From NCBI GenBank assembly GCA_020425695.1, contig JAGQRE010000013.1, positions 13,421-45,754 of the forward strand: a stretch of 32,334 nt of DNA, given 5' to 3'. The translations under genes were made by a program, and so were the position numbers. Positions 22,228 through 24,561 of the stretch are shown one piece after another (the first letter of the stretch is position 1; each line of letters begins with the position of its first letter). A model generated the notes under the pieces. It ran no database searches. It was not told where the DNA came from and saw nothing but the letters and a program-made list of their open reading frames with translations. This DNA is from Planctomycetota bacterium. Its GTDB lineage: Bacteria; Planctomycetota; UBA8742; UBA2392.

Positions 22228-22650
22228 ATGACAATGACTGTAGGCGAGTTGGCAAGACAGACCGGCGTAAACCTTGAGACGGTACGTTTTTATGAGAAGC
22301 AGAAGCTGCTTCCAAAGCCTGAGCGCACGCCGGGCGGCCACCGTCTGTATACGCACGATGACGTTGAGCGGCTGAGTTTCATCCAGCGTGCCAAGTGGGT
22401 TGGTTTCACACTGAAAGAAATCCGTACGTTGATGCGCGTGCGTGAAGCCAACCCCACGGACAGCTGCGAAGACGCCATGGATCTGGCACGGCACAAGGTT
22501 GCTGAGATCGACGAGAAGCTACGCGAACTCCATAGCATGCGTGACGCTCTGCAGACTTTTCTCGATACCTGCCCAGAGATCGACGCAGGGCACTGCCACG
22601 TAATTCAGGGGCTGCAAGCCGTGACGCCATCCAGCTGCTGCGACGACTAA
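22228..22650 (+). CDS. MerR-family metal-responsive regulator
   Basis: 140-residue transcription factor. It has an N-terminal MerR winged helix (VGELARQTGVNLETVRFYEKQKLL then GGHRLY, residues 5-41), a dimerisation coiled coil (about 82-112) and a metal-binding C-terminus. Cys80 and Cys115 are spaced by 35 residues, as in MerR (Cys82, Cys117), and Cys123 sits near the third MerR ligand position. A C-terminal CysCys (137-138) resembles ZntR/PbrR-type proteins. It could therefore sense Hg, Pb, Zn or Cd; the exact metal cannot be read. GGAGGAGA supports the start. It has a dyad at its own promoter and a matching dyad within the 19-bp-spacer promoter downstream, so it probably controls the barrel/HMA operon. 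Confidence 0.9.
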   Translation: MTMTVGELARQTGVNLETVRFYEKQKLLPKPERTPGGHRLYTHDDVERLSFIQRAKWVGFTLKEIRTLMRVREANPTDSCEDAMDLARHKVAEIDEKLRELHSMRDALQTFLDTCPEIDAGHCHVIQGLQAVTPSSCCDD

Positions 22651-22664
22651 CGCGCGACTTGCAC

Positions 22665-22695
22665 TTGAACCCGTACCCTGATACCGGTGTAGTTT
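22665..22695 (+). promoter_or_regulatory. MerR-type promoter (19-bp spacer) of the metal operon
   Basis: -35 TTGAAC (22665-22670) and -10-like TAGTTT (22690-22695) are separated by 19 bp, the overlong spacing typical of MerR-activated promoters. Between them lies an imperfect dyad ACCCGTA-N6-TACCGGT (22669-22688) with the same 6-nt centre as the operator before the regulator gene. Confidence 0.6.
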
Positions 22696-22755
22696 CCATG
22701 CCCCCCGTTGGTGCGGGTACGGAATACACTGATGCGCATTCTGCTTCGCTGACTC

Positions 22756-23631
22756 TTGATTCTGCTGCCGGCCGTGCTGCCGGCGAGCCTCTTCGCCCAT
22801 AACACGTTGTTTGGCCAAGCACCCCGGACCATCTGGAAGGGGGGGATGGAAATCGAGGCCGAATACGAGTGGGAGATCTTCCGGCGCTTCTACGAGGAAG
22901 ACAGCCCAGCCGCAAACCCCCGCGACGACCAGGTGATGGTGCATCATTTCACTGCGGCCTGGACCTACGGGCTGCATCGTGACTGGGCGATACGCGTGGC
23001 CATTCCCACTGCGCTGGCCATTCACACAAGCAAGGACACCCGCGAAGCACGATTCGGGCTTGAAAACATTCCGCTGTCCGTGAAGTGGCGCTTCTTCAAT
23101 GATCCGTTCCCCGGCGGCTCTGTGCAGTCGGGTACTTGGTTCCGAGTTTGGCTGCCGACGGCCGACAAGTCCGAAGACGGCAAGCTTCTGGGTGAAGACA
23201 TTGAGTTCGGCAACGAGTCCTGGAAGTTTCAGCTCGGCTGGACGGCTTCATACAGTACTCGACAGTACTATTTCTGGCTCGACGTCGCGGCCGATGCGAG
23301 CACTCGGCGCTCCGGTACCGGTGCCGGCTCAAGTCTGATCGTGCATCCGGCATTTGCGTGGCGCGTGTTTGAACTGACTGACTATCAGGACTTTGACCTG
23401 ATCCTGCTGATCGAGTCGGACTTTGCGATCCAGGAGAAGGGGCAGGTAAACCACCGCCAGAACAACAACTCGGGATACATCAAAACACACCTTGAGTTGG
23501 GAATGCAGATGAACATCACGAACCGGATAGAGATCAAGTTCGGATATCACATTCCGCTTTACCGGCGGTTTTACGGACGCCAGTTCGTGCATGAAGGTGA
23601 GTTCAAGTTTTCTTTCAACTACTTGATTTGA
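22756..23631 (+). CDS. Outer-membrane beta-barrel, transporter-like; signal peptide broken by in-frame TGA
   Basis: 291-residue open part of a probable outer-membrane barrel. It has many alternating aromatic strands (MEIEAEYEWEIFRRF, HHFTAAWTYGL, FQLGWTASYSTRQYYFWLDVA, IEIKFGYHIPLYRRFYG) and ends FKFSFNYLI. It resembles the MetA-pathway/transporter-like barrels often found near metal genes (inference). An in-frame ATG at 22732 reads MRILLR, then TGA (22750-22752), then LLILLPAVLPASLFA, a perfect signal peptide if TGA is read through. Starting at TTG 22756 gives no basic residues and no ribosome site. Another start, ATG 22846, has a G-rich site but loses the export signal. A stem GCCGGC-N6-GCCGGC lies 14 nt after the TGA. 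The stop codon is TGA, 18 nt before the selenoprotein-like gene. Confidence 0.7.
   Translation: MILLPAVLPASLFAHNTLFGQAPRTIWKGGMEIEAEYEWEIFRRFYEEDSPAANPRDDQVMVHHFTAAWTYGLHRDWAIRVAIPTALAIHTSKDTREARFGLENIPLSVKWRFFNDPFPGGSVQSGTWFRVWLPTADKSEDGKLLGEDIEFGNESWKFQLGWTASYSTRQYYFWLDVAADASTRRSGTGAGSSLIVHPAFAWRVFELTDYQDFDLILLIESDFAIQEKGQVNHRQNNNSGYIKTHLELGMQMNITNRIEIKFGYHIPLYRRFYGRQFVHEGEFKFSFNYLI
22767..22784 (+). promoter_or_regulatory. Candidate SECIS-like hairpin after the signal-peptide TGA
   Basis: GCCGGC-CGTGCT-GCCGGC with a 6-nt loop whose second base is G. The loop starts 20 nt after the TGA at 22750-22752. As I recall the loose bacterial SECIS model, this spacing and loop fit it. GC-rich hairpins are common by chance, so the support is weak. 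Confidence 0.3.
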
Positions 23632-23649: not shown

Positions 23650-24108
23650 ATGAAAAAGCTGATACTGGGCTGCATGTTCGCTGTGCTGCTGGCCGGTTGC
23701 CAGTCTGCGCCGAAAGGCAACGGCGACGCGCAATCCAACAAAGAGCCTGAACCAAAGGCAAACTCTGCCGCCGTCAACAAAGAGCCGGAACCACAGCCCG
23801 AGCCGGAAACCGAACCTGAGAACGATCCCAACATTGTCGGTGGGCAGGATGCAAAGCAGGTGATTTTCGTCCTTGGTGTGGACGGCATGGACTGAGGACA
23901 GTGAGCCACGGGCATCGTTGATGCCCTTGAATCCCGGTCAGGGATAACAGAAGCAAAGACAGACATTGTTGAAGCGGTGGTGTACCTGCTTGGAAAACCT
24001 GGCACTACGCTGGACAAACGGGTCGTTCGAGAGATAGTCGAGGACGATTACGGCTTCGGCTTCCGCTCGCTGGATACAACAGACAAGAAGTGGGAAGATC
24101 TGCCGTAG
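23650..24108 (+). CDS. Candidate selenoprotein: HMA-domain lipoprotein with UxxU in place of CxxC
   Basis: 152-residue protein if two in-frame TGA codons (23893-23895, codon 82; 23902-23904, codon 85) are read as selenocysteine. The N-terminus MKKLILGCMFAVLLAGC is a lipoprotein signal with lipobox LAGC. An acidic, Pro-rich linker with repeated NKEPEP follows. The C-terminus is a heavy-metal-associated fold: VIFVLGVDGMD-U-GQ-U-ATGIVDALESRSGITEAKTDI, then REIVEDDYGFGF. The two TGAs sit exactly at the two metal-binding Cys of the GMxCxxC motif, and the domain continues in frame to a TAG. A hairpin follows directly. GGGAGA supports the start. Gene callers would stop at codon 82 or miss the domain. 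It lies between the barrel gene and a CxxC paralogue. Confidence 0.8.
23907..23929 (+). promoter_or_regulatory. Candidate bacterial SECIS element
   Basis: Perfect 7-bp stem GGGCATC-GTT-GATGCCC (23910-23926), extended by two more pairs across one mismatch. The loop begins with G and starts 21 nt after the first TGA and 12 nt after the second. Position directly downstream of the TGA codons and inside the coding region is as expected for bacterial SECIS hairpins; SelB binding is inferred. Confidence 0.6.
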
Positions 24109-24144: not shown

Positions 24145-24561
24145 ATGAAATTCAACGTGATGATGGCGGTCGCCGTTGCAGTGCTTTCGCTCGGTTTTGC
24201 CGGCTGCGAGCAGTCCACCGCGGAAACTGTCGAAGCGACGAACAAGCCTGCTAACGAAACCGCTGCGCCGGAAACCACTGGCCAGACGTCAAAGGATTCC
24301 ATTGTGAGCGACACCACCAACCCTGCGCCCGCAGTCTATGAGCTGCACGTATCGGGCATGATGTGCGAGCACTGCCAGGCGACGGTTACCAAGTTGCTGG
24401 AAGGCATGGACGGCGTGGCCAAGGCCGAAGTCGACCACAAGTCAGGGCAGGCCATCGTGACGATGGAGCCCGGAAAAACCTTCGATGAGAAGGCTGCCCA
24501 CGACGTGATTGACAAGGATTACAAGCTCGACAGTTGCAGCGTCGCGCCTACAAGCAACTAA
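24145..24561 (+). CDS. HMA-domain lipoprotein with CxxC
   Basis: 138-residue predicted lipoprotein: signal MKFNVMMAVAVAVLSLGFAGC with Cys21 as lipid site, then a Thr/Ala/Pro-rich linker of about 45 residues. A C-terminal heavy-metal-associated domain of MerP/CopZ type follows, with HVSGMMCEHCQATVTKLLEGMDGVAKAEVD (CxxC at about 75-78) and IDKDYKLDS at the end. It probably binds soft or thiophilic metal ions in the periplasm. A further Cys lies in LDSCSV. GGAGA before the ATG supports the start. It is 36 nt after the UxxU homologue, has the same architecture and shares its promoter. Confidence 0.9.
   Translation: MKFNVMMAVAVAVLSLGFAGCEQSTAETVEATNKPANETAAPETTGQTSKDSIVSDTTNPAPAVYELHVSGMMCEHCQATVTKLLEGMDGVAKAEVDHKSGQAIVTMEPGKTFDEKAAHDVIDKDYKLDSCSVAPTSN

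Follow-up and report, generated by a model that had tools for sequence, protein, structure and literature searches.

A candidate double-selenocysteine (UxxU) lipoprotein encoded in a MerR-type operon of Planctomycetota

Introduction

Selenocysteine (Sec, U) is best known as a redox center. Sec-containing proteins of the metal-binding kind have also been described. A UxxU metal-binding selenoprotein, NF041115, is already on record and is listed in a 2026 review, and PMC13188914 credits a protein of this type to Zhang and Gladyshev (2007), from an Olavius algarvensis symbiont. A MerP selenoprotein is listed in the GOS survey (PMC2398784), and the NCBIfam entry NF045683 stands for a MerT/CopZ fusion-like heavy metal transport selenoprotein. 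The closest described operon is mer (merR, merT, merP, merA).

Here, we compare with these systems a locus from a planctomycete genome, found within a window (the whole stretch of DNA analyzed) of 32,334 nucleotides. Like NF041115, the protein of interest has an HMA-type domain and would carry Sec at both UxxU positions, i.e., two Sec per protein; NF041115, however, is a 74-position single domain, whereas the window protein also has a lipobox, a long linker rich in Pro and Glu, and the motif DUGxUxTG. With 21.4 of the 95 bits required, the window protein does not qualify for NF041115, and none of the 17 genomes of the order had a match above that cut-off. As in NF045683 and the GOS MerP, Sec would sit in a mercury/copper HMA or transport protein, but the MerT part of NF045683 is lacking, and the 13 NCBIfam matches obtained for the window protein at E ≤ 0.1 do not include NF045683. 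The operon is like mer in its MerR regulator, its promoter with a 19-bp spacer, and its envelope MerP-like HMA protein; it is unlike mer in that, as read, it has no merT but encodes an outer-membrane channel and lipoproteins. An initial annotation of this DNA did not recognize the combination as a described family. The protein misses the NF041115 cut-off; the UxxU kind itself, however, is known, and with NF041115 on record the idea is less new than the annotation had it. What is very likely a double-Sec lipoprotein family is, together with its operon, new as far as searched, within a kind that was already known.

Results

The genes and elements of the operon in the window are as follows.

22228..22650, + strand: MerR-family metal regulator, 140 aa (TIGR02051, 124.4 bits)
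22665..22695, + strand: MerR-type promoter/operator (TTGAAC, 19-bp spacer CCGTACCCTGATACCGGTG, TAGTTT)
22732..23631, + strand: outer-membrane beta-barrel channel, COG4313/PF13557-like, ending in TGA
23650..24108, + strand: UxxU HMA-like lipoprotein, 152 aa, with lipobox LLAGC, Pro/Glu linker, and HMA-like domain
23893..23895, + strand: UGA 1, codon 82, the first metal-ligand position
23902..23904, + strand: UGA 2, codon 85, the second metal-ligand position
24145..24561, + strand: second HMA lipoprotein (HMA2), CxxC in the window

The UxxU gene opens with ATG at 23650 and closes with TAG at 24106-24108, the sole in-frame stops between them being the TGAs at codons 82 and 85; our rereading of the frame thus gave the same result as the initial annotation. 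Read through, it yields GMD-U-GQ-U-ATGIVDAL. The TGAs had been placed exactly at both metal-binding Cys of an HMA-like domain, and they do coincide with the ligand positions of Atx1/MerP-type proteins. With C put for U, the protein scored slightly below the gathering score of PF00403 (HMA; 24.0 against 24.8 bits) and below the cut-off of the lipoprotein-signal Pfam model (15.2 against 20). An AlphaFold2 model built from 14 sequences had a mean pLDDT of 81-94 per ten-residue block from residue 71 onward, and its top Foldseek matches among solved structures were Atx1 (E = 1.6e-3) and Ccc2a (E = 2.0e-3), with MerP also among the matches; the best probability was 1.00, and no Foldseek match was obtained at E ≤ 0.001. 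As modeled, the C-terminal domain resembles an HMA domain and may work like one, though it stays under the Pfam cut-off.

A six-frame search with the read-through protein found the UxxU gene in 15 of the 17 genomes of the order, representing 6 of 7 genera and 2 families, and each of the 15 homologues had exactly two TGAs inside the match. The gene was not found in the other two genomes (G011 and G013), though both have selB. The other 14 homologues were 30-74% identical to the window protein, and M1, C17 (the lipobox Cys), and D81-U82-G83-x-U85-x-T87-G88 were invariant in the alignment of all 15. In a first-look search of 392 genomes of the phylum with this alignment, in which at most 10 candidates were scored per genome, 23 genomes matched at E ≤ 1e-5. 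Fifteen of these scored >100 bits, all with two TGAs, and were the same 15 genomes of the order; the remaining 8 matched at 28-36 bits only. The 8 weak matches are from genomes outside the order, and the motif was legible in 4 of them, which are HMA proteins of other kinds: CxxC at L079, L080, and L085 (the last a 136-aa frame), so that distant Cys-type HMA relatives exist, and UxxC at L081. The L081 protein (GMTUGGC) belongs to a planctomycete genome that is likewise outside the order.

Homologues with U or C at both positions had been suggested as a check on the initial reading, and what emerged was TGA at both positions in 15/15, with no close Cys form in the 392 phylum genomes or in the protein database. 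Among 5.8 billion predicted proteins there was no homologue of the UxxU lipoprotein at E ≤ 0.001, nor did a protein-alignment scan of genome contigs with Cys back-translations reveal a relative. A DNA pattern spanning both TGAs matched 16 loci in named species genomes, 14 of which (13 Planctomycetota, 1 Planctomycetaceae) carry the UxxU gene. The other two, from Eudoraea, were chance matches. It is from these relatives that the window genome is assigned to its phylum.

These searches bear on whether the UGAs are ordinary stops in a decaying or truncated gene, or the TGAs errors of assembly. That predicted proteins include no full-protein homologue could be read this way, as could the fact that gene callers would stop at UGA, which is also why a predicted-protein search misses the family. 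Decay after the TGAs and a need for resequencing had both been raised at the outset; the domain beyond the TGAs, however, is conserved and intact in all 15 homologues, with the same two TGAs ahead of it across 6 genera and 2 families, both TGAs stand in 14 named public genomes, and the hairpins described below covary. With 14 other genomes sharing TGA at both sites, sequencing error is hardly likely. Conservation of the TGAs and of the downstream domain across genomes led us to reject decay and assembly error, to which we assign very little probability.

Two hairpins follow the UGAs.

23910..23926, + strand: hairpin 1, 7 bp, GGGCATC-GTT-GATGCCC, loop 21 nt after UGA 1
23931..23945, + strand: hairpin 2, SECIS-like, ATCCC-GGTCA-GGGAT, loop 31 nt after UGA 2

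Hairpin 1 is the 7-bp hairpin with a G-initial loop that had been noticed just downstream of the TGAs, and it is paired in 99% of cells across the 15 genomes. Hairpin 2 does not figure in the initial annotation, nor do the operon, its MerR-type promoter, and the TGA in the channel signal peptide. When both hairpins were taken as the named structure, 95.6% of 180 cells paired, vs 33-55% when the structure was slid by 1-3 columns. Three hairpin pairs were altered on both sides in the 15-genome alignment (compensatory change), and RNAalifold, from the alignment alone, proposed the same two-hairpin fold. Synonymous codon identity was 0.73 in the hairpin zone vs 0.52 in the rest of the gene.

The bSECIS rules applied here, taken from PMC13188914, call for a stem of 4-16 bp, a loop of 3-9 nt, a distance of 16-37 nt from the UGA, and a G within the first two loop positions. 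A comparison with bSECIS models had been proposed initially, and its outcome was divided: hairpin 2 satisfies the rules for UGA 2 in 15/15 genomes, 31-32 nt away and with an invariant loop G (15/15), but hairpin 1, in its full form with a 3-nt loop, has the required G in only 5/15, the window included. Of its alternative forms, that of L037 fits the rules with a 5-nt loop, and in six other genomes a fit requires the stem to be cut to 4 bp and the loop widened to 9 nt. Since, in addition, hairpin 2 lies 40 nt from UGA 1, outside the 16-37 nt rule, an all-rule SECIS for UGA 1 is not found in every genome. When the sequences were recoded at random with synonymous codons for comparison, the best hairpin downstream of UGA 2 beat chance (P < 0.05) in 8/15 genomes, and that after UGA 1 stood out in 3/15, among them the window (P = 0.007, its UGA 2 hairpin having P = 0.16); the case for the hairpins therefore lies in the alignment and in no single sequence. 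SECIS scores of 21 candidate Sec UGAs, including the window's two, were higher than those of 1501 UGAs, a control that includes the Sec UGAs themselves (Mann-Whitney P = 0.0004). Four of the 21 had no fitting hairpin, and another UGA control (247 of 1672), which also contains Sec UGAs, is given no weight.

The window genome (4.14 Mb, 88.7% complete) encodes selA (549 bits), selB (341.6), and selD (397.7), all above cut-off, as well as a tRNA-Sec with a TCA anticodon on the same contig as selA, so that the Sec machinery looked for as a check on the initial reading is all present. Its selD itself contains one TGA. Across the order, selB was above cut-off in 16/17 genomes; the exception is G006 (86% complete), which carries the UxxU gene but gave no selB match at E ≤ 1e-70.

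Frames continue through UGA in several genes of the window genome, as they would if UGA were reassigned genome-wide (e.g., to Trp, Gly, or Cys) and not recoded locally. Against this, the channel gene terminates with TGA (23629-23631), as do four of the 15 UxxU homologues (L031, L035, L036, and L037), which bears out the initial view that TGA is a normal stop nearby and that local recoding is to be preferred; the Sec gene kit is present, with a tRNA-Sec whose anticodon is UCA; and most of the candidate UGAs stand where metal or redox motifs have Cys, an exception being the one in the signal peptide (see below). Because TGA ends genes and the Sec kit is in place, we rejected whole-genome reassignment, the probability of which appears close to nil.

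Gene order was read at the 15 loci with the UxxU gene, three of which (L050, L055, and L057) are truncated on the upstream side. Of the remaining 12, 10 have merR, the channel gene, and the UxxU gene in direct succession; at L059 the nearest merR lies 4.9 kb upstream, and no merR was seen at the L062 locus. The window MerR has Cys at three places (in SCEDA... and TCPEIDAGHC), which we take to be the ligand places of metal-sensing MerRs. Its TIGR02051 score is below the cut-off of that MerR equivalog (150.85 bits), and the regulator is under the metal-specific equivalog cut-offs. A promoter of the form TTGAA[CT]-19 bp-TAnnnT occurs in 14 of the 15 genomes, either between merR and the channel gene or upstream of merR, with a GTA...[TA]AC dyad in 13 of the 14 elements; in 3 of the 4 genomes from genera g4 and g6 this dyad is perfect over arms of six bases (CCGTAGTAAGCTACGG). 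The window promoter (22665-22695) is one of three matches to a looser pattern on both strands of the window. We assume the 19-bp spacer and a CCGTA...TACGG dyad to be features of the mer promoter, with a likeness to the Tn501 operator, and the CCGTA...TAC dyad of the window promoter is presumably like that of the mer operon.

MerA (TIGR02053, cut-off 454.45 bits) was above cut-off in 0/17 genomes of the order, the best score being 357.2. With no MerA above cut-off and the regulator under equivalog cut-offs, mercury is put forward only as a plausible metal for the UxxU lipoprotein.

Downstream of the UxxU gene, the first HMA gene was read in 14 genomes, of which nine have CxxC, four UxxC, and one UxxU at its motif; in G001 no HMA gene was seen downstream, and the UxxU-type gene of G012 may not be the same ortholog as the others. 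These counts come from reading the loci, a motif scan having missed most HMA copies. More UxxU HMA proteins (GIDGATUATU, GVDGATUAGU) lie beside the operon, downstream, at L052, L060, and L063.

Conservation of the UGAs at the CxxC ligand places in 15/15 homologues, together with Cys and UGA in the neighboring HMA gene, is as expected of a bacterial selenoprotein. Because the adjacent gene can have either Cys or UGA at these places, Cys would also serve, which speaks for another reading: both UGAs would be decoded, but often as Cys or by near-cognate tRNAs under selenium shortage, so that the product is a metal binder of mixed Cys/Sec type. For the UxxU lipoprotein itself, however, no close Cys form was seen, which suggests that selenium matters at both of its places, and we regard a mixed Cys/Sec product as highly unlikely.

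The channel gene contains a UGA of its own.

22750..22752, + strand: in-frame TGA in the channel signal peptide, codon 7, with 15 residues between it and the mature His

The channel was modeled as a beta-barrel, and its nearest structures were FapF and the COG4313 channel 4rl8. It is like 4rl8 (COG4313/PF13557) in its barrel (TM 0.71/0.77) but has 10% identity to it and differs in the UGA of its signal peptide; PF13557 is precomputed on one channel homologue. From the start at ATG 22732, the signal peptide reads MRILLR-U-LLILLPAVLPASLFA, followed by HNTLFG after a cleavage site judged by eye. Eleven of the 15 genomes have the signal-peptide TGA, nine of them with exactly 15 residues between it and the mature His; the channel genes of the other 4 lack it. 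Translation starting after the TGA would give a signal peptide without its charged end. Database homologues of the channel number 29; 16 were examined, and 8 extend far enough upstream. At the TGA column, two of the 8 (P0008 and P0017) have Cys, and the other six have Pro, Tyr, Ala, Leu, Leu, and the start Met.

A hairpin occurs at a similar place after the signal-peptide UGA in 10/11 channel genes (the exception being L024). Since synonymous recoding yields an equally good hairpin in 7-85% of trials (10 of 11 genes tested), and since the four UGA-less channel genes form hairpins too, two of them strong (L028 and L062), a SECIS for the signal peptide is unproven. Since the residue would be lost with the cleaved signal peptide, it can hardly be of use to the mature channel, and our best guess for the role of this UGA is a selenium gate on channel translation. 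The N-terminal His of the mature channel, directly after the by-eye cleavage site, is invariant (11/11 in the alignment). It could be a metal ligand.

Further metal genes with in-frame UGAs were found, among them genes on two other contigs of the window genome.

Own-genome contig C298; L004 2151-2561, - strand; L128 around 2777: MerR with TGA at the C-terminal metal-binding Cys
L004 1925-2173, - strand: small HMA protein whose UxxC sits in a long, unusual loop, GMVVRNGFLUMQC (P0003)
L004 1105-1923, - strand: HMA-thioredoxin lipoprotein with three UGAs, UxxU + UxxC (P0002)
L003 1342-2025, + strand (contig C220): secreted protein with tandem HMA domains and four UGAs, two in each of its UxxxU motifs, GMSUGVSU and GMTUGVTU (P0005)

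On C298, the order is MerR, then the small HMA (UxxC) gene and the HMA-thioredoxin (Trx) lipoprotein gene. The MerR frame runs through the TGA to give UX7C (LVDS-U-RANRSGR-C), which aligns with the CX7C site near the C terminus of MerRs that have Cys; the MerR of G008 has the same TGA and an identical 14-nt hairpin, GCAGC-GGTC-GCTGC, whose loop is 15 nt after the UGA, one short of the rule's 16. Five of the 392 genomes match the C298 MerR at E ≤ 1e-27, two with TGA and three with Cys in the column, the TGA-bearing form thus being found in only 2 genomes of one genus. The small UxxC HMA protein is also encoded at L128 and L125, and the HMA-Trx lipoprotein keeps all three UGAs in 7/7 matches, in 6/17 genomes. 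In literature searches at record level, no selenoprotein of the MerR or signal-peptide type was encountered.

The C298 operon, in which an HMA domain with UxxU is fused to a UxxC domain of the Trx type, raises the prospect that the window gene does encode a double selenoprotein but that its UxxU is a redox site, a diselenide pair that would reduce or regenerate envelope partners much as Trx-type UxxC would. Most known Sec residues are redox centers, which counts in favor of such a role. So does the emphasis on antioxidant defense in the review PMC13188914. The fold, however, is that of metal chaperones and not of thioredoxin, and the neighbors are a metal-type MerR, a MerR-type promoter, and another HMA protein; a redox function accordingly appears rather improbable to us.

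Discussion

The reading that we favor, and consider likely from the sequence evidence, is that the UxxU gene encodes a lipid-anchored double-Sec protein that traps soft metal ions, e.g., mercury, at the cell envelope. The MerR sensor (22228-22650) would bind the dyad in the 19-bp-spacer promoter (22665-22695), and a soft metal sensed by it would jointly induce the channel and the two lipoproteins, UxxU and CxxC. SelB would deliver Sec-tRNA to both UGAs, directed by the two downstream hairpins, and in the mature UxxU lipoprotein a pair of selenolates would bind the metal between them. This lipoprotein might then either keep the metal or hand it to its CxxC partner and the channel.

A broader reading, which we put forward tentatively and at somewhat less than even odds, takes the UGA-bearing genes together as a selenium-built metal defense: Sec envelope traps (UxxU, UxxC, and the four-Sec tandem HMA protein), a Sec-ligating MerR, and a channel whose signal peptide is selenium gated. 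Under such a scheme, MerR would ligate the metal via a Sec that replaces its C-terminal Cys, and the signal-peptide UGA would tie synthesis of the channel to the selenium supply of the cell.

In the UxxU lipoprotein, Sec would take over as both ligands in a metal-binding loop, and, no close Cys form having been found as searched, the family offers a test of whether selenium can be kept purely for metal affinity. If the broader reading is true, these bacteria would have a selenocysteine transcription factor and a selenium gate within a signal peptide; a UGA at a MerR metal ligand and a UGA in a signal peptide would both widen the range of places in which Sec is expected.
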